From contig JAUNHC010000026.1 in assembly GCA_030524175.1 (NCBI GenBank), positions 1-64,000 on the forward strand: 64,000 nt of DNA. Reading direction: 5' to 3'. This DNA is from Eubacteriales bacterium. Its GTDB lineage: Bacteria > Bacillota > Clostridia > Lachnospirales > Lachnospiraceae. The notes below the pieces were generated by a model that worked only from the letters and a program-made list of their open reading frames with translations, was not told where the DNA came from and searched no databases. Made by a program: the position numbers and the translations under genes. Below, in pieces: positions 7,830-43,824 of the stretch; position 1 is the stretch's first letter; every line of letters starts with the position of its first letter.

Positions 7830-7830
7830 G

Positions 7831-17022: not shown

Positions 17023-17029
17023 GCGGCTA

Positions 17030-18909: not shown

Positions 18910-18994
18910 GACAAAAAATCTTCAAATGGTGACATTCTCATGACCTTTGTATTTTATCATAAGAAATAAAATAAGAAAGGTGGTATCTCATTCC

Positions 18995-19660: not shown

Positions 19661-19672
19661 GGGGGAAGGAAA

Positions 19673-25375: not shown

Positions 25376-25912
25376 ATGAGTAGGAAAAACTATAAAATGA
25401 TTGATGGCAAGTTACTGCGGACGGATAAACAGTTCCGCCATCTGAAACAAAGCCAGAAAGAAAAAATTAATGAGTGGCTTTATCAGGAATATCGGAATCT
25501 TTGGTTAGAGCAGAATCGTCAGCCTTCCTCTAACAGGAATAGGGATATTCTGGCTGCTGTTATGGGAAAAATTTCGGAAGCGGATATCTGGATACCAGAA
25601 CACGAAGTGTTAAAGTATTTGCAGGGAAAGAAAAATCGTTATCGGAAACGTATGGAGAAAGAATTACTGAAGAACGAAATGGACGAAGATATGACAGAGA
25701 ACCAGTTGCCAGTGGAAACGATTAGAGGGGCTGTTGCAGGCGATCAGGATGCAGTGCAGAAGGTGATTGACCATTATTCTGATTATATTGATGATCTTTG
25801 TACCATTAAGGAAGCTCAGGAGAACGGTGCCATTAAGAAGATTATAGATAAAGATATGCGGCAGGCAGTAATTTTGAAATTGATTGAGTCACTGCCAGAA
25901 TTTAAGCTTTAA
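25376..25912 (+). CDS. Helix-turn-helix protein common in Firmicutes ICEs
   Basis: A 178-aa protein with a basic N-terminal half (KLLRTDKQFRHLKQSQKEKI, WLYQEYRNLW) and a C-terminal Orf8-like HTH segment (AVAGDQDAVQKVIDHYSDYI and DMRQAVILKLIESLPEF). AAGGGAG eight bases upstream selects ATG 25376. Such proteins sit beside integrase or excision genes of conjugative transposons, which fits the recombinase genes to its left. The C-terminal domain is similar in plan to the protein at 5794. Confidence 0.7.
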   Translation: MSRKNYKMIDGKLLRTDKQFRHLKQSQKEKINEWLYQEYRNLWLEQNRQPSSNRNRDILAAVMGKISEADIWIPEHEVLKYLQGKKNRYRKRMEKELLKNEMDEDMTENQLPVETIRGAVAGDQDAVQKVIDHYSDYIDDLCTIKEAQENGAIKKIIDKDMRQAVILKLIESLPEFKL

Positions 25913-25950
25913 AAAGTCATGACCGTCTGATAACAAACGGTCATGACTTT
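25913..25950. terminator. Bidirectional terminator (14-bp perfect stem)
   Basis: AAAGTCATGACCGT and ACGGTCATGACTTT form a perfect stem. On the plus strand it ends the HTH gene. On the minus strand it is followed by a TTTTT run and ends the 39-aa peptide gene at 25972-26091. Confidence 0.88.
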
Positions 25951-25971
25951 GTTGAGAAAACTGGGGTTTTA

Positions 25972-26091
25972 TTACTTCTTTTCTTCGTCTTTTTCTTTTT
26001 TCTTGTTTTTGCTCCACCAAGTGCCAGCCACTGAACATCCACCACCGCAAATAAGTACGACGATTAAAATATATAGCCATAAATTATCCAT
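25972..26091 (-). CDS. 39-aa membrane peptide
   Basis: A short reading frame with a clear ribosome site (AAGGAG, nine bases before ATG 26091) and a strong terminator just after its stop. The peptide has one hydrophobic helix (WLYILIVVLICGGGCSVAG) and a highly charged tail (SKNKKKEKDEEKK). This layout resembles small membrane toxins or regulators of membrane complexes, but no antisense RNA promoter was identified nearby. A real gene is likely; function unknown. Confidence 0.6.
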   Translation of the reverse strand: MDNLWLYILIVVLICGGGCSVAGTWWSKNKKKEKDEEKK

Positions 26092-26444
26092 TCCGTTGTT
26101 CTCCTTCCCATCAGAATATAAGCGCTCTTCCACAAATTCTAGCTAATTAATTATAACACAGAAAGTGTCAGATAAATATTTTTATTTGCAGAATATACAG
26201 TCAACATATATATAATGTAAGTTCCGACAGTTTTTATAGGTTTGACGCTCCTTTTAAATATAAAAGAAACTACTTAAAATGAGGGGGTTCTAAGTCCTTG
26301 TACTTATTTAATCCTATTGTTTCAAAAGATTAATTAGCAAGGTTTCTATCTTTCCATTTCACAAGCTGGCCATAGACATTTTGTTTCAGATACATAAGGC
26401 AAGTTCCTGTTTTAACTATTATTCTTAATATAACAAACTTTCAC
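26092..26444. other. AT-rich non-coding region
   Basis: This stretch of about 350 bases separates the plus-strand cargo/recombinase part from the minus-strand ICE backbone. It is strongly A+T rich. No coding sequence, clear terminator or convincing attachment-site repeat was found by eye. It could hold a junction of the inserted island. Confidence 0.4.
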
Positions 26445-26810
26445 TTAATCATATAGTAGCAATTTTTCGTTTGAAAAGATTCTGAGTTCGTTCTCCGTAC
26501 ATTTCCTTATTTCCGCTGGTGACATAATCACAAGATCCAGAGAGAGATCCCTCAGCCGTTTTGTGCAGCCATAAAGTTCAGAAAAATTTTCCTCCAGCTT
26601 TACGATGATATTAGGATCTGATGGAGGTTTAAAGCAGCAATAGATATCCGGTGTTTCATTTTCAGTTTCCTTGTCTTCACCATCCCGGATCTGCAAAACA
26701 ATTCCATAGAGTCCGCCATAATCGCTCTCAGGTAGAGCTGCTATCCATTGGCCAATCCGGTATATCTCATTACCGTAGGCAAAAGTCATGCCACGTTTCC
26801 GAAGCAGCAT
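26445..26810 (-). CDS. Conserved hypothetical ICE protein
   Basis: A 121-aa acidic protein with a pattern I recognise only as typical of conjugative-element proteins of this group (IGQWIAALPESDYGGLYGIV, DKETENETPDIYCCF, LDLVIMSP). No catalytic motif is evident. ATG 26810 is chosen because GAGGGGAG precedes it and it begins directly after the NADAR stop (TAGTATG), indicating coupling. Confidence 0.65.
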   Translation of the reverse strand: MLLRKRGMTFAYGNEIYRIGQWIAALPESDYGGLYGIVLQIRDGEDKETENETPDIYCCFKPPSDPNIIVKLEENFSELYGCTKRLRDLSLDLVIMSPAEIRKCTENELRIFSNEKLLLYD

Positions 26811-26811
26811 A

Positions 26812-27318
26812 CTAACATCTCCCCTCAACCATCATAATCATTTTGGAAAAATCCATTTGATTCAGGCGTAATTTTTCCCTGATATCCATAAGGATAATCC
26901 CCAAATGGTTTTCTCCGAAACCATCTACGCATCCCCAATACCGGTCACCCCAGGTATTCCCTTCTACCAGCGGGGCATTGCCTGTTTCCAGCAGTGCCTG
27001 CATTAGGTCAGGATGTTGACTAAATTTGGCGAAACATATTTCATACATGTACCGCATTTTAACTTGATTCCAGTCTGGACGCAGGGTTACTTTACTTCCA
27101 AGCCGCTTTGCTTCGGCGGGATTTGTTAGATATGCAAAATAAAATTGTTGCTGCTCTCGGACAAAAATAGTTTTTTGCGCCTGAAAAGCTGCTTCATTAT
27201 TTGCATATCTGTGATTTTGATACAAAATAGGCGCATGATAAAAGTTGCTGAGAAACGCATATTTTCCACGAAATGCAAGAATTTGTGGAGATATATAGAC
27301 TTTATTGGTATTTAACAT
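26812..27318 (-). CDS. NADAR-family (YbiA/DUF1768) ADP-ribosyl glycohydrolase-like protein
   Basis: A 168-aa protein with the NADAR pattern: FRGKYAFLSNFYHAPI, NNEAAFQAQKT, WGDRYWGC and GENHLGIILMDIREKL. Family members act on N-glycosidic bonds of ADP-ribosylated or riboflavin-pathway intermediates, and some are antitoxins that remove ADP-ribose from DNA. Start ATG 27318 follows AGAGGG. The gene lies near an NAD-dependent ligase in the same direction, suggesting a link to NAD or ADP-ribose chemistry of DNA. No ADP-ribosyltransferase partner was seen in the window. Confidence 0.8.
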   Translation of the reverse strand: MLNTNKVYISPQILAFRGKYAFLSNFYHAPILYQNHRYANNEAAFQAQKTIFVREQQQFYFAYLTNPAEAKRLGSKVTLRPDWNQVKMRYMYEICFAKFSQHPDLMQALLETGNAPLVEGNTWGDRYWGCVDGFGENHLGIILMDIREKLRLNQMDFSKMIMMVEGRC

Positions 27319-27410
27319 AATAATCCCTCTTTTCATAATAGGAAAAGAAGCGGTTTGCAAAAACCGCCTCTACCCTCGTGTAGTCCTTCTAAATTTTATA
27401 GTTTACTTTG

Positions 27411-28163
27411 TTATATAGCCTTTTTATCAGATATGGAGGTAACGCCACCATGCCCTTTGCCGCTCCAATGCTGTGAAAATATCTGCATCAATTCCATAAG
27501 CTTTTCAGAATTAGAATGAAACTGAGAATCAAAACTCTGTCTTATGTCATAATTGAGGTATAGTAAGCTGAATATAGCATCCCATAGGTCCTTCATCATT
27601 ATTTCACTGAATTCTTTCTCTGCCTTCTGTAAAATTGGCGTGAGTTTTGATATCATCTGGCTCCATTCAACAAAAAAAGTGTCCTCCAGCGAGATTCCAA
27701 ATCTATACAGCCATTCTCGGGCAGTATGTGTTTCTGTATCATCGCCGCATTCTGGATTGACGTATAGATATTCAATCTTGTGCTTCCTGCCATCGAATTC
27801 CTCTGGATTTAGATTTAACATTCTTCCGATGGGAAACATGGCGCAGACAGCGGGTTTACTATCATGAACGGAACATTTATTGTCCTTTAATAAAACACAC
27901 TGCTGCAAAAGCCCTACAGTTTTTAATCTTACGATAGGAAGTCGAGATTCACTGCCTATGTAGGCAAGGCCATAATTTTTAACAGCTTCTACAGGGGTAA
28001 GTCCCTGGCTTTTAGAAATATTAAAAATATCTTTTGCTGTTATCAGAATTGCTTCTTTATTTCGATTAAAGCAGCATTCCCCGCATTGGGTGCAGTGAAA
28101 CTTAAATGGCTCGTCTACTCCGATTCTCATTTTCAAATATTCATCCATCTCTTTTTTATTCAT
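27411..28163 (-). CDS. YkgJ-family cysteine-cluster protein
   Basis: A 250-aa protein with an N-terminal cluster of conserved cysteines (FHCTQCGECCFNR, then QQCVLLKDNKCSVHDSKPAVC in pieces) typical of YkgJ/DUF3109-like proteins that bind zinc or iron-sulfur. The C-terminal half is helical and unassigned. ATG 28163 is preferred, seven bases after AAGGAG. It lies between NADAR and ligA in what appears to be one operon. Function unknown. Confidence 0.75.
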   Translation of the reverse strand: MNKKEMDEYLKMRIGVDEPFKFHCTQCGECCFNRNKEAILITAKDIFNISKSQGLTPVEAVKNYGLAYIGSESRLPIVRLKTVGLLQQCVLLKDNKCSVHDSKPAVCAMFPIGRMLNLNPEEFDGRKHKIEYLYVNPECGDDTETHTAREWLYRFGISLEDTFFVEWSQMISKLTPILQKAEKEFSEIMMKDLWDAIFSLLYLNYDIRQSFDSQFHSNSEKLMELMQIFSQHWSGKGHGGVTSISDKKAI

Positions 28164-28203
28164 AATCATGCTCCTTGTATGTAAGTCGATTTTAATAGGA
28201 AAA

Positions 28204-30231
<2,028 letters not shown>

Positions 30232-30300
30232 TTAGCTCTTCCTATGTATTAACAGTAAATTTATTTAGCAGTTCGTGCATATGCAGACGGCCAATTTGTT

Positions 30301-31182
30301 TTAAGGTATCACAAGCCGCCCTTGTTTCCGATCGTAATAATAAGCATGGTCAGATAGGATCTCTTCAGGCCTTACATTGGTTCTGTTCACAAACTGTATA
30401 GTTACATCTAACTCTTCCTTTGACATACCAATAAGTTCCGGATAAATAATGGTTTCGTGTATGCTGCTTGGAGCTACAAAGTAATTCATTTGTAAGAAGT
30501 CGCCGATGTCTTTCAATACCTGTTCGTAAAGAATAGACGTTGCTCCCCAATGCAATTCCTTATTGGAAAGCACATAAGCCGGATCCAGATCATACTCATC
30601 CTCTATGTCGGGAGAACTTTCCCGTATGATAGATGACATTGGCTCCAGCGTTGGCGGGAAGATGCGAAGTCCGTTCTTGATTGCACATGCGTGAAGGGGT
30701 GCAGTATCCTTCTGCCAATGCCTTAGATGCAAATTGTGAATAGGAAGACTTGCTACCCCGGATAAAGACACATTAAAAACCACACTATACACAATAGACA
30801 AGTCAAAAAAAGGCAGATGTGGCATGTCAGCCAGCCGCTCTGCATTCTTTTTTGCATTTACCAGTTTAAAGATAATGCGATCTTTTATTTGATTGAAATC
30901 GGATAAGTCGTCAGTCATTCGTTTTGCATTCACCTGTAACTGTTCGGGCAAATTAACAATCTCCTTGACTATTTGAGACAATTCCATTCCATCAAGAAAA
31001 GCCTGATAGTAGCCTTCCAAAGAAACAGTGCCTGTACTTTTACTTTGGGGAGTCTTAAATTCAAGTCCACTTCTAAGGACTCCATTATTCCCAGATGACT
31101 GGGTGATGGCAATAGTTGTGTGCGAATCAAGCTTTTCTGTCACTTTCTGCAGTAATTCTTCTTGAAATTCCTTGTAATTCAT
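30301..31182 (-). CDS. DUF5688-family protein
   Basis: A 293-aa protein with features of the DUF5688 family of clostridial mobile elements: an N-terminal helical region, YYQAFLDGMELSQIVKEIV, and a C-terminal part with SNKELHWGATSILYE. ATG 31182 is set by AAGGAG upstream. It is the first gene after the regulated leader at 31262-31469, so it heads the ligA/YkgJ/NADAR operon. Function unknown. Confidence 0.7.
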   Translation of the reverse strand: MNYKEFQEELLQKVTEKLDSHTTIAITQSSGNNGVLRSGLEFKTPQSKSTGTVSLEGYYQAFLDGMELSQIVKEIVNLPEQLQVNAKRMTDDLSDFNQIKDRIIFKLVNAKKNAERLADMPHLPFFDLSIVYSVVFNVSLSGVASLPIHNLHLRHWQKDTAPLHACAIKNGLRIFPPTLEPMSSIIRESSPDIEDEYDLDPAYVLSNKELHWGATSILYEQVLKDIGDFLQMNYFVAPSSIHETIIYPELIGMSKEELDVTIQFVNRTNVRPEEILSDHAYYYDRKQGRLVIP

Positions 31183-31261
31183 ACATTTTCTCCTTTCCGT
31201 AATAAGGTTTTTTCCGTGGTCCTGTAGGATTTTCCTTTCCTCCTTTCCTGATTTTAGGCAT

Positions 31262-31311
31262 AAAAAAACAGAGGATGATCCTTTCAGAAACTGAAAAACC
31301 ATTCCCTGTTG
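31262..31311 (-). terminator. Second terminator hairpin in the DUF5688 leader
   Basis: On the minus strand AACAGGGA can pair with TCCTCTGTT (one bulge) around an inner TTTCAGAAACTGAAA hairpin, followed by seven T residues. It lies between the promoter at 31441-31469 and the first gene, so it acts as an attenuator, not a gene end. Confidence 0.6.
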
Positions 31312-31333
31312 TGTACTTGCGTGAGCGCAAATG

Positions 31334-31377
31334 AAAAAGCCAGTGGCGGCCCTGAGGGGCACAATAATCCACTGGCT
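31334..31377 (-). terminator. First terminator hairpin in the DUF5688 leader
   Basis: On the minus strand AGCCAGTGG pairs with CCACTGGCT and is followed by TTTTT. It lies immediately after the conserved box at 31381-31399. Confidence 0.8.
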
Positions 31378-31380
31378 ATA

Positions 31381-31399
31381 CAAACCTAAACAACATGTG
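31381..31399 (-). promoter_or_regulatory. Conserved leader box, copy A
   Basis: On the minus strand this reads CACATGTTGTTTAGGTTTG and matches 17 of 19 bases of copy B at 43597-43615. In both leaders it sits downstream of a small hairpin and just before an intrinsic terminator, as an antiterminator or attenuator element would. Confidence 0.65.
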
Positions 31400-31440
31400 A
31401 AATCCAACAGGATTAACCACAAAATAAATAATACATATTT

Positions 31441-31469
31441 AATATAGCACAATATATAGAACCACACAA
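31441..31469 (-). promoter_or_regulatory. Promoter of the DUF5688-ligA-NADAR operon
   Basis: TTGTGT and TATATT separated by 17 bases on the minus strand. The spacer (CTATATATTGTGC) resembles that of the promoter at 43680-43708. The transcript would have a leader of about 250 bases with two terminators. Confidence 0.6.
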
Positions 31470-31523
31470 CAAATAATTGCTATATATTGTATTTCAAATC
31501 TAACTATGTAGTCCTTCAATTTG

Positions 31524-31907
31524 TTAATGCTCAAAGGCACGATTCTGCTGGACTTTATATCGTTCTTCACAAGAGTCCTCTTCAGGGAATCTGTTATTTT
31601 TATCCGGAATTATAATTCTAAGGACATCCCGTCCAGTCTCTCGGTACTTTTTCAGCTGAATAGGACAATCCTCATATATCCCTGATACTAACTGATCGGG
31701 ATGAAAACGCTCGCCATTTTGGACACGGCTTCCCATCGTGTTTAAAAGATAGCCGATATGTTCCGGTGGAAGATTTAACACCACTTGAAAATCCAAATGT
31801 CCATAAGCATTCATACCATGCGTATGTGTATTGATAATCCCACCCGGGCCAACAGCATCGATAATATAGTGTATAATCCAAGTTATAGGTTCTTTATTTT
31901 TCATCAT
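31524..31907 (-). CDS. DUF4262-like protein
   Basis: A 127-aa protein with THTHGMNAYGHLDFQVVLNL followed by PPEHIGYLLNTMG and RIIIPDKNNRFPEE, a pattern I associate with the DUF4262 group of small proteins on conjugative elements. GAAGGGAG precedes the paired ATG codons at 31907. Conserved His residues (THTHG) could bind metal. Function unknown. Confidence 0.6.
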   Translation of the reverse strand: MMKNKEPITWIIHYIIDAVGPGGIINTHTHGMNAYGHLDFQVVLNLPPEHIGYLLNTMGSRVQNGERFHPDQLVSGIYEDCPIQLKKYRETGRDVLRIIIPDKNNRFPEEDSCEERYKVQQNRAFEH

Positions 31908-31933
31908 TTTTGTTCTCCCTTCATTGTTAAGCG

Positions 31934-32647
31934 TTAACCAATATCCTTCAGAAGCACTGGACTGCTGTCTGCTTCAGGATGCTCCAGCTTGGTGGAGGGA
32001 TCGAATCGTTTGCCATCCTGAATTCCTTTTGAGACAAAGTGTCTGGTTTCCCCAGAATAATCCATATCACCAAACTGCTTGCCCTTTTTCATGTGTTTGA
32101 TGTTGTCCAAGACCGCCTTGGGAGTTTGGAGTACCAATCCCCACTCCTGATTGTGTTCGGTTTCCTGTCTTTTAAAAGCCTCTTCCAATCCAATACAGAA
32201 ACCGTCTCCATAGGCGTTGGTAATTTTCCGAAGTTCTGAATTGCTATAGGAACCCTGATACTTTTGGCGGATTGCCTTACACTCGGAAACCACACATTCA
32301 TATGCATACCGAAAGATCCGGACACAGATTTCAAAATCCTCTTCCAGCCCAACAAATCCGATTGTGACTTTTTTCTCATATTTGTAGTGGTTGCGGAAAG
32401 ACTTGCAGCAGTAATGAGAAGCAATCACAGCGGCGAGCCGGGTGGTCCAGCTATTTGTGAGTTTAGTACATGTGATGTCAACGGTTTTTCGGATTACTTC
32501 TTCAGCTTTTATCTTTGCCACATCATCTGGGCGCAGTTTATGCAACGCCATAAGCTCCCTTGCTTTTAAGAGTGCAGCTTTGGCCTCGTGTTCATTGGGA
32601 CTGTCAGCCAGCGCCAGCAGTTTTGCAATTTTTTCTTTTATATCCAT
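31934..32647 (-). CDS. DUF2786-domain protein
   Basis: A 237-aa protein whose N-terminal 45 residues (IKEKIAKLLALADSP, NEHEAKAALLKARELMALHKL) form the DUF2786 helical hairpin, followed by an alpha/beta region. Family members occur on phages and ICEs. No enzymatic motif was recognised. It belongs to the run of tightly spaced minus-strand genes from about 36.5 to 31.5 kb. Confidence 0.75.
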   Translation of the reverse strand: MDIKEKIAKLLALADSPNEHEAKAALLKARELMALHKLRPDDVAKIKAEEVIRKTVDITCTKLTNSWTTRLAAVIASHYCCKSFRNHYKYEKKVTIGFVGLEEDFEICVRIFRYAYECVVSECKAIRQKYQGSYSNSELRKITNAYGDGFCIGLEEAFKRQETEHNQEWGLVLQTPKAVLDNIKHMKKGKQFGDMDYSGETRHFVSKGIQDGKRFDPSTKLEHPEADSSPVLLKDIG

Positions 32648-32693
32648 ATCTTGAAGTTTTTCCTTTCTTTTACAGGGCTGTATTCTAAAACAG

Positions 32694-33272
32694 TCACACT
32701 TTCAATGGATTTTCAAAAGCATGGATACGGATGTTCTGTTCATCTAGTAACATATCCAATGCATCCAGAGAATTGGCATCATACCCAAGCTTGCGAAAAT
32801 AATTTATAAGTTCCTGCTCCGATTCAAAAAGTGCCCAGTCCGCTAAAACTTCTGTCACTTTCTTTCCTAAAGGCGTTATTTCGTCTTCTCCATTGATCTG
32901 GATGAGGTATCTTTCAGGAAAATAGCGTCCATTAATATCTGTATTAAAATAAATTCCTTCTCCTGGCTCTATGCTTTTGCATACAAATGACACATCATAG
33001 TGTTCTGAAATAGCACGATAAGCGTCATAGAGAGGCCACCATGCGGCACTTATGTCTAAAAGGATTCCGTCATCATTTCGTTCCATGTAAGTGACTATCC
33101 CACGCAGACATATTCCGGAGGTTAAAATTCCTTTATATTGAAACAGACAGCCAATCCAAGAATTGGACGGATCTCTATCAAGTGATGAGTAAATATCTTC
33201 CCATAGGTCCTGTAATCCCTTCGGATTCTTATCGGAATAGAAATAGACATCATCACTGCATATATTTGCCAT
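32694..33272 (-). CDS. Hypothetical ICE protein (192 aa)
   Basis: A 192-aa acidic protein beginning MANICSDDVYFYS, a start resembling the ferredoxin-like (Api92/DUF1281-type) proteins of plasmids and phages, though the similarity is weak. TAATG overlap with the upstream stop shows coupling to the 33272-33829 gene. No catalytic motif was recognised. Confidence 0.5.
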   Translation of the reverse strand: MANICSDDVYFYSDKNPKGLQDLWEDIYSSLDRDPSNSWIGCLFQYKGILTSGICLRGIVTYMERNDDGILLDISAAWWPLYDAYRAISEHYDVSFVCKSIEPGEGIYFNTDINGRYFPERYLIQINGEDEITPLGKKVTEVLADWALFESEQELINYFRKLGYDANSLDALDMLLDEQNIRIHAFENPLKV

Positions 33273-33829
33273 TACTCTTGCACCTCCAAATCAATTGATT
33301 CCCCATATCCGGGAACAGTAAGCGAATATTCACAAGGAGTGAGGGATGTGTCTCTCGAATATACCTCATAAACAGCATCACATTGTTCAGTATCTGCATA
33401 ATTTTTATACAATTCTACAATCTCCAGTTCTACGTCTCTGTTAGAAGAGTAGGCAGCGCTGATAATTCCATCATGGATAATTACAACAATGTGTGTGTGT
33501 TTCGACTGCTTTACCAGTGCAATTCCACCCATTTTCATTTGCTGCTCCATTTTATCAATTACTGCATCCATCGTATCGTTAAAGGCTACATTACAGTCCT
33601 GTATATCCTGATAATAGGAATACGCCTGTTCAAGAAGCTCCTTTTGCTCCTCCATATTATGTGCCGGCAGATTACAAAGTCCGGTACCATCGGCATACCG
33701 TTCCTTATAACGATTTACAAAATCAAGTTCAAAATCCATCTTTTGACAAATGGCATGTGCTTTTTCTAATTCAGCATGTTTCAAGGCAATCTCGATTGTC
33801 TGTCCTTTGTACATTCGGTGTATTAACAT
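33272..33829 (-). CDS. Hypothetical ICE protein (185 aa)
   Basis: A 185-aa acidic protein with a central coiled-coil-prone stretch and a C-terminal beta-rich segment. GGAGGA five bases before ATG 33829 supports this start, which makes the gene overlap its upstream neighbour by 59 bases. No family was recognised. Confidence 0.5.
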   Translation of the reverse strand: MLIHRMYKGQTIEIALKHAELEKAHAICQKMDFELDFVNRYKERYADGTGLCNLPAHNMEEQKELLEQAYSYYQDIQDCNVAFNDTMDAVIDKMEQQMKMGGIALVKQSKHTHIVVIIHDGIISAAYSSNRDVELEIVELYKNYADTEQCDAVYEVYSRDTSLTPCEYSLTVPGYGESIDLEVQE

Positions 33830-34367
33830 TATTTTCCTCCAATTCTGTTTGGTTGGAATAGACCAGAAGTTTTCCCTGCAAATCTATGGGATGATCTACC
33901 CAAGTGTCATTTATATAAATCTGTTGTGTCAGCGTATTATAGATTACCGGCTCTTCTTCTAAATTAAATAAGTCAGCGACCAGACAGGTCTGAAGATTGA
34001 TGTAAGGCCAGAGCGCAAGCTCAAGTTTCTCTCGCAGCTGAAGCGCCAGCTGGTACAGTTTTTCTATATCATAGGTCTTATAAACTACTCTGCCCATCTC
34101 TTTTAAAAGTCCGGATTCAACAATAGCCTTATTCATCGCATCCACCTGTTTTTCTAGTGAAATATCAGGATTGAGTATCAGGCCACGTAAAGTAATCTCG
34201 TGTATATACGCAGTAGCAGTCTGACTAATCTGCCGCAGCAAATCGTCATAAGCCCGCTTATAGATGGTTTTTAATAACTGGCGGTCTATTGCTTCCCGGT
34301 TCTTTTTTAAGATAGAGAGCAGCTTTTGCAGGCTGCTCCCATATTCTTCAATCTTATTCAAGCGCAC
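33771..34367 (-). CDS. Hypothetical ICE protein (198 aa)
   Basis: A 198-aa mostly helical protein (KLLSILKKNREAIDRQLLKT, IEKLYQLALQLREKLELALW). Its 3' end overlaps the next gene by 59 bases and its start overlaps the previous stop by ten bases. This indicates a compact, coupled operon. No family was recognised. Confidence 0.5.
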   Translation of the reverse strand: MRLNKIEEYGSSLQKLLSILKKNREAIDRQLLKTIYKRAYDDLLRQISQTATAYIHEITLRGLILNPDISLEKQVDAMNKAIVESGLLKEMGRVVYKTYDIEKLYQLALQLREKLELALWPYINLQTCLVADLFNLEEEPVIYNTLTQQIYINDTWVDHPIDLQGKLLVYSNQTELEENNVNTPNVQRTDNRDCLETC

Positions 34368-34606
34368 ATCACCTCTGTATTCGGGTTAAATATATAATTT
34401 AGTTCATATACCGTGTTGCGGGTTTCAAAAAGTATGCCCTCTGTGGATACTTCCCAGATATGCACTACAGGTGTTGTGGTGATCGTATGACTGCCATAGC
34501 ATATCCATGCCCGTTCGCCTACTCTAAGCGGAAGGGACAGTGTACCAGTCAAAATCTGTTTTTTCTTTTTCCGTTCTGATAGCTTTACAAGTTTTTCTTC
34601 TTTCAT
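34358..34606 (-). CDS. Small conserved ICE protein (82 aa)
   Basis: A small protein with a basic N-terminal stretch (LSERKKKKQ) and a beta-rich rest (RVGERAWICYGSHTITTTPV). The latter is a common pattern in small ICE proteins located near methyltransferase genes. It overlaps neighbours on both sides. Function unknown. Confidence 0.55.
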   Translation of the reverse strand: MKEEKLVKLSERKKKKQILTGTLSLPLRVGERAWICYGSHTITTTPVVHIWEVSTEGILFETRNTVYELNYIFNPNTEVMCA

Positions 34607-34860
34607 CTGATATCCACTCCTTTCTTTAACAACGGAGATGTTTCCATGAGCCTTTTACATTCGTCAGGATAGCGGTCCAGTGCCTGATTGCAGGACAGTC
34701 CCTTCACATAATAGGTCTGATAAATCGGACAGCCTTGGGAACAATGGAACTGGTTTTTAGAGGGACAAAATGCATCCCGCTTGGCTGCAATATCTTCGGA
34801 TACGTGAAGATTGAACACACGATTTGAAAATGCAATTATTGATTCTTTCTTCTGAGTCAT
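34603..34860 (-). CDS. Small cysteine-containing ICE protein (85 aa)
   Basis: An 85-aa protein with several Cys residues (FHCSQGCPIY, GLSCNQALDRYPDECKRL), possibly a small metal-binding fold. The stop and the next start overlap by four bases (ATGA). Function unknown. Confidence 0.55.
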   Translation of the reverse strand: MTQKKESIIAFSNRVFNLHVSEDIAAKRDAFCPSKNQFHCSQGCPIYQTYYVKGLSCNQALDRYPDECKRLMETSPLLKKGVDIR

Positions 34861-34876
34861 TATTTTTATCCTCCTT

Positions 34877-35932
34877 TTATGCTACAGCGTAGTTCAGCCG
34901 GTAGCAGCCACGAGACACCGGGATATATTCCTCTGGGTGTTCGTAGATAGTGGCTCTTATGCGCTCCTGATGGTGCATGTTTTTTTGTGCTTTTGGGTGG
35001 CTTTTCAGACATTCATATAGATCTGCCAGATTGGCAGTGCCACCTAAGCCTTCTAAGGTCATTCGGATTAAATGATGCCAGGTCAAGGACTCTATATCCA
35101 CATGGTTCACCGAAAAACAGTTGTCCGATTTCCAGCTGAAGGGAACCATGAGGGCATCTTGCTTATGATAAATCAGTATATATTCAGTTACGATAGGGAT
35201 AAAAGGCTTTCTGTATGTCCGATTATTGGAAACACAGTTGAACTGTCCTTTTACGAGGAAAGACTCAAAGCTGCCCATCCGCATCATGTCATGCTGGATA
35301 CTGTAGAACTTCCCGTTGGTCCGGATATCTCCGACTAATATAGCCAGGCGTCCATCTTTTTTGAGAGCAAAAAACAGTTTCCGAATACAGTAATTTAATT
35401 TTTCCAGAAAGTCTTCATAATTCTCGCATCGGGACAGATCATCCGGATGAGGTTTCCCCCACATGTTACCGCTATATTTGATGATGTCATGATAGGGCGG
35501 ATGAAAGAAAATCAAATCCGCCGAATCGTCAACTTCATTTTTTAGAGCGTTCCAGTTGCCTCGGCCTGCTACAGGCTTTGGATTTAAGTCATATAAAAGT
35601 GACCGGACCTGAAAGCGGTCTGCAGCAGCCTTGGATGTGCCAGAGCCGCTCATAGGGTCCAGCAATGTAAATGTGCTCGTGTCTTTTCCGTAATAGTGTT
35701 TGGTATCCAGTATATATTTTAGAATTGCCGAAACAACCTCTGGGGAACAGTTGCCCCGCCAGTGGTTGTCACCGCCTTGTCCTCGGTCTGGGAAAGCCAA
35801 AAAAGATGTCAGCTCCTTACCTACTCTTTTCCTTAAGCCCTCAGTGCCAAGTGTTTCTACAATACTTTTCCATTCTGGACCAAATTCCTGTTGTAACAGA
35901 GCAGCAGCCTTTTGAATCTGTAACTCATTCAT
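34877..35932 (-). CDS. DNA adenine/cytosine-N methyltransferase-like protein
   Basis: A 351-aa protein with the AdoMet-binding motif I DPMSGSGTS (residues 92-100) and a catalytic motif IV that reads HPPY (144-147) instead of the usual DPPY or NPPY. The C-terminal third is helical (WHHLIRMTLEGLGG). No restriction endonuclease is nearby, so it is an orphan. Such enzymes on ICEs may protect incoming DNA from host restriction. The His in motif IV could alter specificity or activity. It overlaps the sigma-like gene by four bases. Confidence 0.8.
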   Translation of the reverse strand: MNELQIQKAAALLQQEFGPEWKSIVETLGTEGLRKRVGKELTSFLAFPDRGQGGDNHWRGNCSPEVVSAILKYILDTKHYYGKDTSTFTLLDPMSGSGTSKAAADRFQVRSLLYDLNPKPVAGRGNWNALKNEVDDSADLIFFHPPYHDIIKYSGNMWGKPHPDDLSRCENYEDFLEKLNYCIRKLFFALKKDGRLAILVGDIRTNGKFYSIQHDMMRMGSFESFLVKGQFNCVSNNRTYRKPFIPIVTEYILIYHKQDALMVPFSWKSDNCFSVNHVDIESLTWHHLIRMTLEGLGGTANLADLYECLKSHPKAQKNMHHQERIRATIYEHPEEYIPVSRGCYRLNYAVA

Positions 35933-36486
35933 GCGGCACTGCCTCCCTTCGGAACAACATGAACAGTGAGAAGTCTTCTCCGAAATCTGGAAAACCGGTT
36001 TCGGACGCTATACACACTGATCTGGCAATGTTCTGCAATTTCCCTGTATGTATACCCATCTGCCTTCAAACGGACGGCTTCCCGTTCCTTAGGAGTCAGA
36101 TAAGTTAACAAATGCTGCAAGATTTCCTGATCATGCAGGTGTTCTTCAATAGACATCGTTCGCTGTGGCAGAAACTGGTTTAATTCTTCCATGGCATTTT
36201 CTTCATTGTATGTGGTGATGACAGCCTTTCTTTTTGAACGGTTCCGGTACTTGTATTCATCTACAAGTGCGCTGTGCATCTGGTTCCAGGCAATTGTTTT
36301 AAAACTGTATTCCTGAAGCTTAGGGTTCCCAAGGTATTCTTGCACTGCACATAAATATCCGAAAACAACAACATCATAAAAGTCATCTTCCGACAGCCGG
36401 TAATGGTTCAAAAACTTTTTAACATCATCATGGTGCTCACTTGCAAATTGCTGTTCAGCAATAGTCAATTTACTTATTTTCTTCAT
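35929..36486 (-). CDS. Sigma-70-family factor
   Basis: A 185-aa protein with a region-2-like segment (YLCAVQEYLGNPKLQEYSFKT, then AWNQMHSALVDEYKYRNR) and a clear region 4 (LTPKEREAVRLKADGYTYREIAEHCQISVYSVRNRFSR, in segments). It could direct RNA polymerase to element promoters. It is translationally coupled to the methyltransferase. Other sigma-like genes occur at 5354 and 45789. Confidence 0.8.
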   Translation of the reverse strand: MKKISKLTIAEQQFASEHHDDVKKFLNHYRLSEDDFYDVVVFGYLCAVQEYLGNPKLQEYSFKTIAWNQMHSALVDEYKYRNRSKRKAVITTYNEENAMEELNQFLPQRTMSIEEHLHDQEILQHLLTYLTPKEREAVRLKADGYTYREIAEHCQISVYSVRNRFSRFRRRLLTVHVVPKGGSAA

Positions 36487-36559
36487 AAAAGAATCACGTC
36501 CTTTCTTTAGTTAAGGCATAATCCACTAGGAATAGCGCCATCTTTTCATATCGTAATTT

Positions 36560-37075
36560 TTACAGTGTTTTTGCTGTGATTAAAGCTGCTATGATTCTGG
36601 CACAAAGTCTTGCTTCCTCGGTCACCTCTTTTTGTCCATTGCAAAATAAAAGCAATGCTAAGGATTGTCGAGAGAAATCAGAGGTTTGCAGTGGGATCAA
36701 AGTATCTACAGGGAATTTTGCAGAATCTGTTGCATAAACAGGACTGTCAAAAATCACCGGTTGCCGGGAGCGTATATGTTCCGCTAACTGGGCGGATACT
36801 GCGACACCCTCTGCAAGATGAATCCCTTTTGCGGCAATCACATATTCTTCCGAGCAGATAGCCGCACTGCAGCGAATCACAGAATAAAAAATTTCTAAAT
36901 ATTTCTTCATATCTGGGTCCTTGACTTGAGTGGTGTACTTAGAAAGCAGAATCCCACTATCCGTTGGACGTATTTCCAATGGATCTCCATCTGAAAGGTT
37001 CATAGTCTTTCTGATTTCCACCGGAATGATTAAACGTCCTTGAGGGTCGATATACCGTATCATTGCTGGTCTCAT
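36560..37075 (-). CDS. AbrB/SpoVT-like regulator with sensory domain
   Basis: A 171-aa protein with an N-terminal SpoVT-AbrB swapped-hairpin DNA-binding domain (IRYIDPQGRLIIPVEIRKTM, LSDGDPLEI) and a C-terminal GAF-like domain (about 60-171), the layout of SpoVT. GGAGGA seven bases before ATG 37075 sets the start. It probably regulates element genes in response to growth state. Confidence 0.8.
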   Translation of the reverse strand: MRPAMIRYIDPQGRLIIPVEIRKTMNLSDGDPLEIRPTDSGILLSKYTTQVKDPDMKKYLEIFYSVIRCSAAICSEEYVIAAKGIHLAEGVAVSAQLAEHIRSRQPVIFDSPVYATDSAKFPVDTLIPLQTSDFSRQSLALLLFCNGQKEVTEEARLCARIIAALITAKTL

Positions 37076-37131
37076 AGGTGTTTCCTCCTTTAACGGCAGA
37101 AGGAAGCGTAAACGCTCCCTCCTGAAATTGA

Positions 37132-37815
37132 TTATGCTGCATGTCCATTTGGATAGGACTCTTGTGGTTCCTGTCGTCTTTGCTCCAGTGATGCCTGTAA
37201 CATGCGTTTGCCATTGGTAATCAGAGATGGGGAAATGATAGCCTCCCACATATGAATATACTGAACAATACGGTTCAATAACACGAACATATCTGCATCT
37301 AAAAGGCCAATGACCACCTTCGATTGGAGCTTGAAACTTCCTTTCTGCATAAATGTTCCACCATTTTTGTTTTTTACCTTAATTCCTTTCCCATTTTGCA
37401 CGTCAATACACCACGGATTTTTTCTGGGTGTCCCATCATAACCATGCGTATTACGTGTAATAAACACCCGATATGCATCTGAATAACCATTTTTATCTGG
37501 TGTGCCATATATTTTATCTCCTTTGTATTCAAATATCGGAAATCCGGCGTAAAGCCGAGAAAAAATAAACTCTATAACATCAGGAGATAAATTGGCTTTG
37601 ACTTTAATATTATTTTGGCCTGTACCCTTTGAGTAATCCATTAATACTAAGCCTATTAGAGAATTTATTTTTCTGTCGTTTTCTGTGTACTCACCATTTG
37701 CATGCAGCTGTGCGTAGTTATAAACGGATGCAACACGCAGTTTGTCATAGAAAGCAATCAGGTGTTCAGTGGTCTTTAAGACACATATCTGGTTTGATAT
37801 ATAGGGTTCATTCAT
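37132..37815 (-). CDS. Conserved hypothetical ICE protein (227 aa)
   Basis: A 227-aa soluble protein of a kind common next to VWA/MoxR pairs in clostridial ICEs. It has FSRLYAGFPIFEYKGDKIYG, NTHGYDGTPRKNPW and a C-terminal Gln/Arg-rich tail. No named domain was recognised. It lies 22 bases after the VWA gene and is probably co-transcribed with it. Confidence 0.55.
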   Translation of the reverse strand: MNEPYISNQICVLKTTEHLIAFYDKLRVASVYNYAQLHANGEYTENDRKINSLIGLVLMDYSKGTGQNNIKVKANLSPDVIEFIFSRLYAGFPIFEYKGDKIYGTPDKNGYSDAYRVFITRNTHGYDGTPRKNPWCIDVQNGKGIKVKNKNGGTFMQKGSFKLQSKVVIGLLDADMFVLLNRIVQYIHMWEAIISPSLITNGKRMLQASLEQRRQEPQESYPNGHAA

Positions 37816-37837
37816 GTAATTATTTCCCTTCTTTCTG

Positions 37838-39910
37838 TCAGTTTATGAATTGCGAAATTAATGCGGGCAACAGCTTTGGCAGCCTGTTCAAATCTGTGAT
37901 ATCCAAGAATCCATCTTGATAAATCCGCTTGATGCGTTCCTTGTCAGAGCCAATGGCTGCCGCAAAAAGGATGATACCTTTATTGCGGTATTCCTGTTTA
38001 ATCGCACGCAGGTCAGCTTCAGCCGCTGTGCCGCCATAGCCTTCACCGTTTGGCTGTCCGTCTGAAATCAGAATTAGAAGCTTTGTCTCCTCTGGTCTTT
38101 CCATTAAGTGTTCCGCCACGAAGCGAAGTGCAGCACCGTCACGGTTGCATCCCCGTGCACACATATCCATCAGACGGTAGCAATCCTGATTATCAAGAGA
38201 ATCAAATTCTGCATAAGAATACAGTTCTACTGCTGATTGTTCCGTGTGTCCATAAATCGTTACTGGTATTTGCAGGCTTTTGCAGAAATCATATAAAATA
38301 ATTGCTGCCTGCTGAGCCATAGTAATACGGGATGCACTGGACATTGAGCCACTTTCATCTATCAGAAGTGCCACTGCCAATTCCGGATTTTCACCGGGAA
38401 GACGCATCCGGGAAAAATATGCTCCGTCATCCTGACAGAGGTAACGGGGTTCAAACCGCCGCCCATAAGGTAAATGGGTCAGCTTTTCTCCATTTCTCTG
38501 CTTTTCAAGGACTTCCTGCACACTTTTCTGCAGCCGTTTAGAGATTGTCAGTAATGGTGCTTTTATCCTGTCATAGGCATCCTTTAGGTGCTGCTCGACA
38601 TGAGAAATCCGGTTGACATACAGATGGATTCCTTTATGGGCATCTCCGTAATACAGTTCCTTTGCCTGTTGCTGCAGCTCCTCTGAAAGTTCTTCTTCAT
38701 AGGCTATATTTACCTTGTCTGTCGCAATTTGGGTTAAAGCATCCAAAATGTCGTTGACACTTTCTTCGTAGCCGGAACCCTTATAATCAAAGTTATAAGT
38801 AACTCCGGGATTGGTCCCACCAGCGATCTGCGAAGTCTTTTGCAGAGCAATTCGTCCAGATTCCTCTTTGAGGACCTTTTCTGCTTCTTTCTTTCCTGCT
38901 GAAATGCTGCTGGCACTTAGCTTGCCGGTGCGCTTTAATTTTGGTTTTCCAGTTCCATTTGGAAGGGGGGCGCCGCCAGCAACTTGTTTGCCCAAGGTTT
39001 CTTCCAGCTTTTTACCATGTGCCTGTACCTCTTCTGGTGTCTTGGCTTTTTCAGCTTCCTCTACCAAGGGTTTGATATAGGGCCATAGAATAATAAGAAT
39101 TTCATTGACGGCTTTGAATCGTTCTCTTGGGTCTGGTTCGTACATAGCATCATCCAGAAACGGGATGCAGGTATCTAAACAATCCAGATATTCGCCCTGA
39201 TAGCCCGTTACATTATTGAGTTCTCCTGCTTTGCAGTATTGGATGATGAGATTTGCCATAATGGAAAAACTCTGATAATTATTATCAATTTGTTTCTGAA
39301 TGGAGGGAATCTGTTCTGCAAACCGTTCATTGTTTAAATGAATTCCAAGCCGAAAGTTTCCGGGAAACATCTGGCACATACGAGCCTCAATGTAAATATC
39401 TTCCTCGATATTCATTATGGTAGCAGCACATTTTGCAAGTGTCCTGCATACGGCTGTATTTTTGCCGGTCATAGCATCTATGATTTCTTTTAAATTATAT
39501 TGATTCTGGATTGCAGTGGCAGAAGGGGCAGAAGGATAAAAACTTCCGTTTTCCATAGAACGTATATAGAGACGCAGAGCAGTAAAATCTGTAAATAACA
39601 GATGTCCACACTCATGTCCAGTGAGTCCCGTCAGGCTGTAAGATTTTAAGAGCCTGGTCGGAAAGCTTGCAGTAATAGGATTTGCGGCATTTTCATGGAT
39701 GGTCTGATTGTCCGTGTAAGCAACATCTGCATGATCGGATTCATCCCATTCCATAATAACCTGGATCCCACTGTGGTATCGTTTAGCGGCTGTTTCCGCC
39801 ATCCCACTTTGATAATCTGCATAAGCACTGGAAGTAAATAGCTCCTGATCCGTAATCTTGTCACGCTCTTCCAGAATCCGTTTTTTTAATAATCGGTAAT
39901 CAGCGTGCAT
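37838..39910 (-). CDS. VWA-domain protein with HExxH motif (CobT-like)
   Basis: A 690-aa protein. Near the N terminus GHECGHLLF (His99 to His103) is an HExxH metallopeptidase-like motif. A long helical middle with a low-complexity basic stretch follows (about 320-350). The C terminus is a von Willebrand factor A domain with the MIDAS signature DESGSMS at about 518-524 and ISDGQPNGEG. The plan recalls cobaltochelatase CobT and other VWA partners of MoxR ATPases. Its neighbour at 40178 is such an ATPase, so the two probably form a chaperone or remodelling machine. No cobalamin genes are near, so metal chelation is unlikely. Confidence 0.8.
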   Translation of the reverse strand: MHADYRLLKKRILEERDKITDQELFTSSAYADYQSGMAETAAKRYHSGIQVIMEWDESDHADVAYTDNQTIHENAANPITASFPTRLLKSYSLTGLTGHECGHLLFTDFTALRLYIRSMENGSFYPSAPSATAIQNQYNLKEIIDAMTGKNTAVCRTLAKCAATIMNIEEDIYIEARMCQMFPGNFRLGIHLNNERFAEQIPSIQKQIDNNYQSFSIMANLIIQYCKAGELNNVTGYQGEYLDCLDTCIPFLDDAMYEPDPRERFKAVNEILIILWPYIKPLVEEAEKAKTPEEVQAHGKKLEETLGKQVAGGAPLPNGTGKPKLKRTGKLSASSISAGKKEAEKVLKEESGRIALQKTSQIAGGTNPGVTYNFDYKGSGYEESVNDILDALTQIATDKVNIAYEEELSEELQQQAKELYYGDAHKGIHLYVNRISHVEQHLKDAYDRIKAPLLTISKRLQKSVQEVLEKQRNGEKLTHLPYGRRFEPRYLCQDDGAYFSRMRLPGENPELAVALLIDESGSMSSASRITMAQQAAIILYDFCKSLQIPVTIYGHTEQSAVELYSYAEFDSLDNQDCYRLMDMCARGCNRDGAALRFVAEHLMERPEETKLLILISDGQPNGEGYGGTAAEADLRAIKQEYRNKGIILFAAAIGSDKERIKRIYQDGFLDITDLNRLPKLLPALISQFIN

Positions 39911-39928
39911 ATATTGATTGTCCTTTCT

Positions 39929-40171: not shown

Positions 40172-40177
40172 CCCCCT

Positions 40178-41989: not shown

Positions 41990-42004
41990 TTTGTCACATC
42001 CTTT

Positions 42005-42778
42005 CTAGTTTCCCCAAGATATCTGCAGTGCAGTATCCGTAATTTCCGCCTTCAGTTCATTGTCTGCAAAGATAGATACCAGTTCTTCCCAGTAGTTCTT
42101 CCCGGGAAAGTTCTGGAAGGTATCTTTAACAACAGGTTTTTCATTCTCTACAATGATAATCTCTCCGCCTTCATTAATAGACAGCGTGGAATACCCTCTG
42201 GCATTCAGGTCCGTGATTAAATGACTTAATACGTTTGCACCGATAAGCTCATACCAGGAACTGCAGTCTACGACTGGCGGCTCTGGAGCGGGCGTTTCGT
42301 CAGGTGATTGTCCTGTCTGGGAGAGCGGTTGAATCCGCATCATTTTTAGACGCAGGGAGCCATAGGCATCTATGTTGATTTCAGCATGGGTAAATTCCCC
42401 GGCATGTGTGACACAGATGCGGACGGCCTTTCCATTCAGTAAGCGTTCCGTGCTTGGCCGTTTTTCCCAGTCCCAAGTAGCGTCCGGATAGGCTGAGCGC
42501 AGCTTATCTGTAACCCGGTGGCTGAGCTGGCACAACAGTGCCGAGCGGATATCATCGAAAGGCGGTTTATCAGGAGACTTCGCCCGTCTTATTCTTTTGG
42601 TACATCTGGGCAGTTTCGGTAACTGAATTCTGGGGGCAAGTGCAAGAAAAACCGTGCCAATTAGCCCGAAGGCAATAATCCCCAAAAACAGATTCCTGTT
42701 CTGATCAGGCACAAATAAAGCCATTACCAGTAAAACTGCAGTTACAATTTTAAAAAATAGCATTCCTTTGGATTTCAT
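42005..42778 (-). CDS. Membrane-anchored hypothetical protein
   Basis: A 257-aa protein with two N-terminal membrane helices (about 8-28 and 31-51), then a cytoplasmic part of about 200 residues with a Pro-rich linker (SPDETPAPEPPV). ATG 42778 is preferred, downstream of AAAGGAC. It lies between SSB and the MoxR-like ATPase and might link that system to the membrane. Not a recognised family. Confidence 0.6.
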   Translation of the reverse strand: MKSKGMLFFKIVTAVLLVMALFVPDQNRNLFLGIIAFGLIGTVFLALAPRIQLPKLPRCTKRIRRAKSPDKPPFDDIRSALLCQLSHRVTDKLRSAYPDATWDWEKRPSTERLLNGKAVRICVTHAGEFTHAEINIDAYGSLRLKMMRIQPLSQTGQSPDETPAPEPPVVDCSSWYELIGANVLSHLITDLNARGYSTLSINEGGEIIIVENEKPVVKDTFQNFPGKNYWEELVSIFADNELKAEITDTALQISWGN

Positions 42779-42855
42779 CTGTTTGTCCTTTCTTAAAAAA
42801 AAGAGGAGTTGCTGAGAATCATATATTCTCTTGCAATTCCTCTGTGTGATAATCA

Positions 42856-43497
42856 TTAGTTACTGAATGGTAATGGTTCCTGCGGCACGTTGGAAAAACC
42901 ATTTGCAGCGCCCTGAGTATATGGGGTTCCGGCTGGTGGCTGAGACTGCTGGTAGGCAGCTTGTTGTTGATATCCGCCTGCCGGAGGCTGCTGTTGGTAA
43001 TTTTGTGGAGGTGCCTGATATTGCTGATAATTCTGTTGTGGTGGAGCCGCATTTTGTGCCGGCGGATAATTTTGCGCTGGTGGTGTACCCTGAGCTGCCT
43101 GTCCCTGTAGATTCCCCGAAGCTGTCTGCCCGGTCTGTTCCTCCTTTTGTTTATTTTGCGGCGTATATGACCAATCATAAACACTGACTTCCAAACTGCG
43201 GTCATGAATCTGTTCGTTTGGGTTTTCCCTGCTTGTCCGCATATATTCTTTGGAATCAAAGTTACCTATGATAGTGATCACACTGCCCTTTTTAACTTTC
43301 GCATTAATGAGCCTTTCAGCTGAATTTCCGTAAAAAAAACAGGAAAAACACAGGGTGTGTTCGGACTCTTTGCTAAAGCCTTTGTTCTGAATGAAATTCA
43401 GCCGCACATACTTAGCTCCTGTCTCCTGATTGACAGTTAGTTCAGGATCCTTTGCGGCCCGCCCTTCAAATGTGATGGATGTTAACATGTTACTCAT
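42856..43497 (-). CDS. ssb: Single-stranded DNA-binding protein
   Basis: A 213-aa protein with an N-terminal OB fold (SITFEGRAAKDPELTVNQE, AKYVRLNFIQNKGF, ITIIGNFDSKEYM). It is followed by a long Gln/Pro/Asn/Tyr-rich tail (about 112-200) and a conserved-looking end PQEPLPFSN, related to the DDDLPF tip that recruits partner proteins. ICE-encoded SSBs protect transferred single strands. AAAGGAG lies nine bases before ATG 43497. It is the first gene of the operon after the leader at 43548-43708. Confidence 0.88.
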   Translation of the reverse strand: MSNMLTSITFEGRAAKDPELTVNQETGAKYVRLNFIQNKGFSKESEHTLCFSCFFYGNSAERLINAKVKKGSVITIIGNFDSKEYMRTSRENPNEQIHDRSLEVSVYDWSYTPQNKQKEEQTGQTASGNLQGQAAQGTPPAQNYPPAQNAAPPQQNYQQYQAPPQNYQQQPPAGGYQQQAAYQQSQPPAGTPYTQGAANGFSNVPQEPLPFSN

Positions 43498-43547
43498 TTG
43501 TTGTTCTCCTTTCTGCCTTCTGGCAATAAAATATGGTTTTGGGTAAT

Positions 43548-43590
43548 AAAAAAAGTGCCATATATGCGCAAATAGGCATAATATGACACT
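43548..43590 (-). terminator. Attenuator-type terminator in the ssb leader
   Basis: On the minus strand AGTGTCATAT plus ATGC pair with GCAT plus ATATGGCACT (one bulged T, one G-T pair), followed by seven T residues. It lies between the promoter and the ssb start, so it can only act on the leader. Confidence 0.8.
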
Positions 43591-43596
43591 AATTTC

Positions 43597-43615
43597 CAAA
43601 CTTAAACAGCATGTG
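43597..43615 (-). promoter_or_regulatory. Conserved leader box, copy B
   Basis: On the minus strand CACATGCTGTTTAAGTTTG, 17 of 19 bases identical to copy A at 31381-31399. Upstream are two small hairpins (TCTGG/CCAGA and CCC/GGG). Confidence 0.65.
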
Positions 43616-43679
43616 CTTCTTCTGGAAGAATGGTCCAGACTCCCCATCGGGATAAACACAAAAACTTAAATACAATCAT

Positions 43680-43708
43680 ATATTAACACAAGATATAGTG
43701 ATAGTCAA
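43680..43708 (-). promoter_or_regulatory. Promoter of the ssb operon
   Basis: TTGACT and TAATAT with a 17-base spacer on the minus strand, a near-consensus sigma-A promoter about 183 bases before the ssb start. Confidence 0.75.
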
Positions 43709-43824
43709 ACAAAACACTCTATATATAGAATATGGAGAGACATAAATTATCAGCCCCATAGATTGCCTAAAATAAACTATTTGTGGTATACTTTAGATAA
43801 GTGAAAGAAGAAAGGGGGATGACA

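Follow-up and report, generated by a model that had tools for sequence, protein, structure and literature searches.

Two leaders in the window and the genes behind them

The stretch of DNA analysed here (64,000 nucleotides, hereafter the window) carries two operons on its minus strand, each headed by a copy of the same leader; coordinates refer to this strand unless marked (+). Behind copy A lie genes for a DUF5688 protein (the first gene, 30301..31182; Pfam PF18941, 4.5e-80), NAD-dependent DNA ligase (ligA, 28204..30207; PF01653, 8.9e-48), a CxxCxxCC (YkgJ-type) protein (27411-28169; PF03692) and a NADAR protein (26812-27360; PF08719). The first gene behind copy B is ssb (42856..43497; PF00436, 1.6e-6), followed by a predicted terminator (42802..42843, -17.7 kcal/mol) and by gene 2 (42005..42778, 257 aa, P0001), which served as an independent bait in protein searches (see below). 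The longer frame of gene 2 (42005-42856) had no Pfam match.

Leader copy A and its promoter region occupy 31378-31490. The sequence, a motif search and the operator table place promoter A at 31441..31469, with the -35 element TTGTGT (31469-31464) separated by a 17-nt spacer from the -10 element TATATT (31446-31441). A near-palindromic operator, ACAATATATAG (31480..31490), lies upstream of the promoter and a second one, CTATATATTGT (31459-31449), inside the spacer. The RNA core (31378..31441, defined by the R1 match and the MFE fold) is composed of a 5' flank, a closing stem in which UGUG (31421-31418) pairs with CACA (31399-31396), and the inner hairpin AATCC(TGTT)GGATT (AATCC 31414-31410, GGATT 31405-31401). 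The conserved box, CACATGTTGTTTAGGTTTG (31381..31399), was recognised by its recurrence in the window and in the family. Two terminators with U-tracts are predicted after it, T1 (31338..31377, -21.9 kcal/mol) and T2 (31267..31310, -16.4 kcal/mol). The 17-spaced promoter, the AATCC/GGATT hairpin, the 19-nt box and the two terminators of the original prediction are thus all present in the sequence as claimed; the outer UGUG/CACA stem enclosing the hairpin and the second operator, upstream of the -35 (31490-31480), go beyond it.

Leader copy B with its promoter region spans 43594-43729 and is homologous to copy A. Promoter B (43680..43729; motif search, promoter scan and operator table) comprises an upstream operator, TCTATATATAG (43729-43719), the -35 element TTGACT (43708-43703), a spacer operator, CTATATCTTGT (43698-43688), and the -10 element TAATAT (43685-43680). 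Core B (43594..43680; R1 match and fold) is of a two-hairpin type, its box, CACATGCTGTTTAAGTTTG (43597..43615), differs from box A by two mismatches, and T1 is predicted at 43554..43590 (-15.5 kcal/mol). A nucleotidyltransferase-HEPN pair (PF01909, PF05168; 43801-44560 (+)) is encoded immediately upstream of promoter B in the opposite orientation; it is probably a HEPN-MNT toxin-antitoxin module inserted beside the promoter. Elsewhere in the window, a large surface protein bearing thioester and T-Q ester domains is encoded near the transfer genes (47648-51352), and two adjoining gene sets at 6174-22291 (+) correspond to one and the same group of genes in element stretch E4, so that a duplicated cassette seems to be present there.

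When the 19-nt box was searched in the window allowing up to three mismatches, one other site was found, that of copy B at 43615-43597 (expected number 0.02), and none of 100 shuffled windows contained two matches. In a blastn comparison within the window the two copies matched over the promoter and early leader with E of about 4e-4, the match ending before the box; a gapped local alignment covered the promoter and reached into T1. With at most one mismatch allowed, the spacer motif CTATATNTNGTGNTA of the promoter occurs in the window at A and B only (0.25 expected; at least two matches in 3 of 100 shuffles). The covariance model R1, built from 30 type-A cores, one of them core A itself (61.2 bits), detected core B with E = 1.8e-6 in 302 kb and with E = 3.6e-5 in the search of the window's own genome. 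Copies A and B are homologous members of one structured-RNA family, and the homology to the ssb leader asserted in the original prediction holds. The leader is common to the two copies, whereas their T1 stems are largely different.

Collection and distribution of the family

In total 46 distinct cores were collected with box patterns plus TTTGTG, and the conservation of these two elements in the set is therefore partly built in. The window's own genome has a third exact box on contig C31 and a divergent box on C92; these two contigs and that of the window (C19) hold three elements related to one another, in each of which an A-type leader is accompanied by one of the ssb type. On C92 the latter matched R1 weakly (E = 0.11) and was recognised by eye. 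Searching 299 family genomes for the box with at most one mismatch gave matches in nine, five of which hold leaders there (the window's own, G013, G028, G035 and G104), the matches in G096, G179, G200 and G260 being due to chance. G028, G035 and G104 resemble the window in having two copies on the same strand, separated by 11-14 kb. A scan of genome contigs for TTTGTG, gap and box yielded 39 stretches from Lachnospiraceae, Clostridia or genera usually placed there, two being labelled just 'Bacterium', and the gap lengths fell into two classes.

R1 matched 20 of 397 family genomes, the window's own included, and 19 of 334 genera. Of 391 genomes sampled at class level, two had matches: one is the window's own, and the other belongs to a different family and has two leader copies 14.4 kb apart. 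A class with three inner hairpins turned up among the new R1 matches. No viral contig contained an exact match to the gapped pattern; plasmids gave no match with copy B or a type-A query and one Subdoligranulum record with a three-hairpin query, and phages one matching record, described as unverified. The three-hairpin-type leaders concerned are L128, in the 247-kb Subdoligranulum plasmid record OY725878.1, and L129, in MT835653.1, a record labelled bacteriophage; both records are without annotation.

Elements carry two or three leaders, with ssb, ligA or DUF5688 among the first genes. Third copies without the CACA arm were seen in G028 (C12:205407-205467) and G035 (C1:1477277-1477337), in loci L075 and L076, about 10-13 kb beyond copy A; they keep the promoter, box core, T1 and T2. 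Locus L034 contains a decayed extra ssb-type leader with a broken box (5533-5616, minus strand), perhaps the relic of an insertion.

Against Rfam 15 (4227 families) there were no gathering-level matches in the window and 12 loci, and at the two leaders themselves sub-threshold matches alone, with E of 1 or more. In the literature no paper describing such a leader was found, as judged by title or abstract opening. The leader thus belongs to a family of structured leader RNAs of conjugative elements, chiefly those of Lachnospiraceae. The searches brought many further copies with box and hairpins, so that the first refuting outcome named in the original prediction, a lack of such copies, did not occur, and the comparison with Rfam agrees with its notion of an uncharacterised motif.

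Independent test with a protein bait

The circularity of RNA-based collection was avoided by using gene 2, the protein after ssb, as bait in a family sample of 397 genomes, equal in size to that searched with R1. The search found 24 places in 21 genomes. R1 matched at each of the 20 places with E <= 1e-25, at a distance of 0.66-1.2 kb upstream from the protein match, the weakest of these R1 matches having E = 0.071 in 88 kb; the four weak partial places had no upstream R1 match. None of the 20 leaders was in the R1 training set, which is of type A only. Not all 20 loci are independent, L138-L140 sharing the same leader and L146/L147 and L148/L150 being near-identical pairs.

Between leader and gene 2 an SSB-like frame was present in 19 of the 20 strong places, SSB-like meaning blastp E <= 2e-27 to four SSB yardsticks, of which the three scanned against Pfam match SSB (2.4e-18, 9.7e-6 and 5.7e-4, the last below the curated cut-off). 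The exception, L151, looks decayed, since it lacks an SSB frame and its box is damaged. The first scan placed a strong terminator (-16.7 to -39.3 kcal/mol) shortly before gene 2 at 18 of the 20 places. At L141 and L151 the terminator lies further upstream (-24.5 and -22.8 kcal/mol) and the protein match starts inside the gene; with both scans combined, a terminator is predicted before gene 2 in 20 of 20 loci. Gene 2 of L146/L147 has one in-frame TAA.

These linkages bear on the idea that the transcript ending at T1 serves as a free small RNA with a function in trans, the operon being reached by readthrough. A structured, terminator-ended RNA of roughly 100-140 nt with several copies per element would suit such a role. 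Yet a same-strand open frame follows in 36 of 39 copies, the other three lying near contig ends, and the frames behind leaders are mostly ligA, DUF5688 or ssb. In a set of 18 loci, 13 were recognised by the script and 12 of these have a frame (L096 and L100 doubtful); together with the SSB-like frames of the bait loci this makes a free small RNA improbable.

Promoter, operators and box

The copies are built alike, from a sigma-A-type promoter and a pair of CTATATATAG-like operators, the stem, the box and the terminator. The operators are near-palindromic and flank the -35. They are spaced 31-32 bp apart in 39 of the 44 copies in which both were found (46 examined; L094 and L105 dropped), which corresponds to about three helical turns and so fits one protein bound twice. 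The -35 reads TTGAC in 41 of 46 cores, and its distance from TTTGTG is 44-46 nt in all 46. The pairing of the operators points to a probable DNA-binding regulator that controls the promoter. A MazE/SpoVT-like protein and two sigma-like proteins (36560-37249, 35929-36486 and 45789-46367) recur in most related elements and are candidates for this operator-binding regulator.

The box core is usually TGTTTARGTTKG in the 46 pattern-collected cores, and TGTTAAGTTTG in the three-hairpin class. The box is more variable in the bait loci than in the pattern-collected set, further variants being TAGTTTATGTTTGG in L135 and TTGTCAAGTTTG in L146. A leader peptide starting in the box (ATG CTG TTT ...) was considered and rejected, as most single-hairpin copies read ACG there.

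Two other readings would place the function in the promoter DNA. In the Q mechanism a promoter-bound protein engages RNA polymerase paused just after initiation. A similar protein loading between -35 and -10 would account for the conserved motif inside the promoter spacer and the conserved first transcribed bases, but would leave unexplained the RNA stem, the box 3' of the stem and the presence of the same motif upstream of the -35; we rate it slightly below the free small RNA. The second reading is a single-stranded-DNA promoter of the Frpo/ssi kind, from which ssb-type genes would be expressed as soon as the element has been transferred. It would fit that one operator is nearly the inverted repeat of the other and that ssb, ligase and methylase genes are typical of early entry. 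Against this, the operator arms showed no cognate pairing beyond shuffles (complementarity 8.72 versus 8.66 out of 11 positions, 36 distinct pairs, fraction 0.31), the -35 would sit in the loop, and conservation reaches far into the transcribed leader, so that this reading is the least probable of all those weighed here.

RNA structure and covariation

In the folded leader a UGUG/CACA stem encloses between one and three inner hairpins. The MFE fold closes the outer stem in 42 of 45 cores (L075, which is without the 3' arm, was dropped from the set), the exceptions being L047 and L110, in both of which it is closed in a shifted register, and L067. Where CACA is replaced by UACA (L093) or CAUA (L103), the stem is kept through G-U pairs. 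The fifth stem pair is standard in all 19 multi-hairpin copies (CG 14, UA 4, UG 1) and in 12 of 26 single-hairpin copies; among the 45 copies together, 31 have it paired, as compared to 26.7 in shuffles (fraction 0.015). Positions 6 and 7 showed no excess pairing in the 45 cores (14 versus 16.8 and 10 versus 21.3 in shuffles). Taken one by one, single-hairpin cores fold weakly better than their shuffles (fractions 0.01-0.42), while for the eight cores of the three-hairpin class the fractions were 0.01 or less. L100, a member of that class, folds with two hairpins. The inner hairpin of L146/L147 contains a run of 8-10 C, whose length differs between the two genomes.

In alignment A3, 80.1% of the cells pair, a share that 3 of 500 shuffles reached (shuffles: 76.7%), and the pairs changed on both sides stayed within the shuffle range (91 of 500). 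Sliding A3 by -1 or +1 gave covariation values of 0.124 and 0.145, above that of the unslid alignment (0.115). The two-hairpin alignment has four pairs changed on both sides and the three-hairpin alignment, analysed with RNAalifold, one; MAFFT leaves the hairpins of the latter out of register. Two further structures were rejected: RNAalifold paired the box with the 5' flank in the two-hairpin class, but over 45 copies this was no better than shuffled, and a box-internal hairpin in the A1 and A6 folds was absent from the two-hairpin folds.

The stem topology can thus be regarded as established, while formal covariation is modest. As to stem covariation, the absence of which the original prediction named as refuting, the outcome is mixed: the topology is kept and covariation is moderate in the multi-hairpin classes; in the single-hairpin class it is weak. 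Its broader proposal, a shared cis-element that may be an uncharacterised RNA motif, is supported by the further copies, the conserved box, the stem topology and the lack of an Rfam match.

Terminators and their relation to the leader

All terminators were predicted from energy and U-tract; a consensus terminator scan misses long-loop terminators, and purpose-written scans were therefore used. In all 45 cores long enough to be judged (46 collected; L053 dropped as too short), a strong T1 begins 3-11 nt downstream of the box, and in 31 of them a second terminator follows within 200 nt. A simpler terminator test was positive for 44 of 45 cores, as compared to 45 of 1000 positions taken at random and none of 5 chance matches of the box. 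In 42 of 45 cores T1 follows the pattern GYCA...TGGC-U-tract. One of the terminator scans was noisy and served for coordinates only.

Both the near-fixed distance of T1 from the box and the conserved GYCA...TGGC base would be expected if a ligand or protein acting on the leader controlled T1 alone, as in a riboswitch or a RAT-like system, with no lasting change of the polymerase; because of the common base, a T1-specific action is possible. Neither the leader body nor the box paired preferentially with the cognate 3' arm of T1, and the box paired worse than shuffled; this comparison concerned T1 only, and the automatic choice of the 3' arm was visibly off for several rows, including L097, L099, L102, L105 and L110. 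Attenuation by base pairing was rejected for want of a cognate pairing signal, which also makes ordinary attenuation unlikely. Moreover, were T1 alone controlled, the second terminator of operon A and the post-ssb terminator of operon B would stay closed, and there is no Rfam match. Taking these points together, terminator-specific attenuation appears unlikely, and the 'two attenuators' of the original prediction are doubtful in so far as T1, the terminator compared, shows no cognate pairing to conserved leader parts over the family.

In a stricter scan, the 17.4 kb of element stretch E1 yielded four sense terminators, each of them at a leader or after ssb, and E2-E6 contained 7-12 sense and 1-9 antisense terminators each. 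Terminators in E1 being few, T2 and the post-ssb site are the chief grounds for processivity over long distances. Promoter-like sites in 25500-44000 numbered 49 versus 43.7 expected, and ordinary promoters elsewhere are possible.

Proposed mechanism

What has been computed is a family of leaders, its anatomy, its linkage to certain genes and the predicted terminators. The explanation that we favour, and consider fairly probable, is that the nascent leader renders RNA polymerase resistant to terminators. The genes lie behind T1, T2 or the post-ssb terminator, and the mapped promoters can thus reach them only if terminators are passed. Predicted downstream terminators that polymerase must pass are a feature of processive antitermination. 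Since there is no cognate pairing with T1 and the same leader stands before differing T1 stems, an effect on the polymerase is the simplest reading. Reaching the post-ssb terminator would require processivity over at least several hundred bases; antitermination and its processive nature are what we infer from this arrangement.

An operator-controlled sigma-A promoter would start the operon transcript of the integrative conjugative element, and the 5' end of this transcript would fold into the UGUG/CACA stem with one to three hairpins, the box lying just 3' of it. The nascent structure and the box would then most likely attach to RNA polymerase during elongation, either unaided or together with a factor from the host or the element. 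Polymerase so modified would pass T1, in operon A also T2, and the post-ssb terminator, at which polymerase entering without the leader would stop. The evidence fits such a cis-acting antitermination leader better than the common trans-acting regulator of the RNA that was originally proposed.

Antitermination of this kind would bear on how the long operons of conjugative elements are kept silent in the host and fully run when the element moves. A compact leader with natural one-to-three-hairpin variants, present in 20 of 397 family genomes, is suited to finding the RNA parts that override terminators, and the family marks operon heads in poorly annotated gut elements.

Comparison with known antitermination systems

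Few antitermination mechanisms have been described in Gram-positive bacteria, three according to PMC12691694. In function, conAn2 of pLS20, canT of Tn916 and the LoaP leaders come nearest to the leader described here. LoaP acts on the dfn and mln leaders, in which, as here, a small hairpin is followed by a terminator and which are common to two operons (PMC12691694). A dedicated NusG paralogue binding the leader hairpin could be imagined in our case too, the more so as the leader-bearing genome G013 has four NusG matches. G028 (100% complete) and G104 (96%), however, carry both A and B with a single NusG match each (two of the five genomes tested); a dedicated paralogue was not found in them and is therefore unlikely. 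The window's own genome (90.7% complete) is without any NusG match. The LoaP hairpin, as presented in PMC12691694, is of the UNCG type, which is absent from the MFE folds of our leaders, the inner loops being, for example, UGUU, GGAA, GUAA and GAUG. A LoaP-type mechanism is accordingly very improbable, only the single-stranded-DNA promoter ranking lower. As a gene expected in any case, nusG may fall into the missing part of the assembly of the window's genome.

The conAn system (protein ConAn1 and RNA conAn2) of pLS20 and its relatives has its RNA at the start of the conjugation operon (PMC8955417). According to the same source, it resembles our leader in that an RNA heads a Gram-positive conjugation operon with internal terminators to pass; it differs in that here there are two or three leaders per element, with ssb, ligA or DUF5688 as first genes. 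R1 found nothing significant in pLS20 1-49000 of 65774 (best E 0.42, minus strand; one direction of comparison). By analogy with ConAn1 and conAn2, the leader might be the loading site for a trans-acting protein encoded by the element, a sub-case of the antitermination proposed above in which the role of the RNA stays the same. Several small proteins and the two sigma-like proteins are conserved in these elements, and the box resembles a sequence-specific recognition site. No candidate protein emerged, though: six pLS20 operon-start proteins, presumably including ConAn1, had no credible match in 12 element stretches (best E 0.07). We hold this two-component form to be conceivable yet rather doubtful, ahead of terminator-specific attenuation. 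A thioester-domain protein, like the surface protein of the window, also occurs among the pLS20 proteins.

The canT element of Tn916 is a cis-acting antiterminator RNA of an integrative conjugative element that passes insulator terminators (PMC11658703), a likeness drawn by description only. It was assayed as a 452-bp Tn916 fragment, according to PMC11658703, whereas the leader core here measures about 60-110 nt, with the promoter directly before and T1 directly after it. The put sites of HK022 and the EAR RNAs of Bacillus, too, act in cis by antitermination through nascent RNA (PMC8955417, PMC11658703); they were set beside the leader by description only, and the leader gives no gathering-level Rfam match. 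Tentatively, and with less assurance than antitermination itself, we suggest that the family is a new modular class of cis-acting antiterminator RNAs, with a constant stem, 5' flank and box and an exchangeable one-, two- or three-hairpin core. Such RNAs would be unrelated to put, EAR, conAn2 and canT, would work without a dedicated NusG paralogue and, with several per element, would constitute an antitermination regulon.
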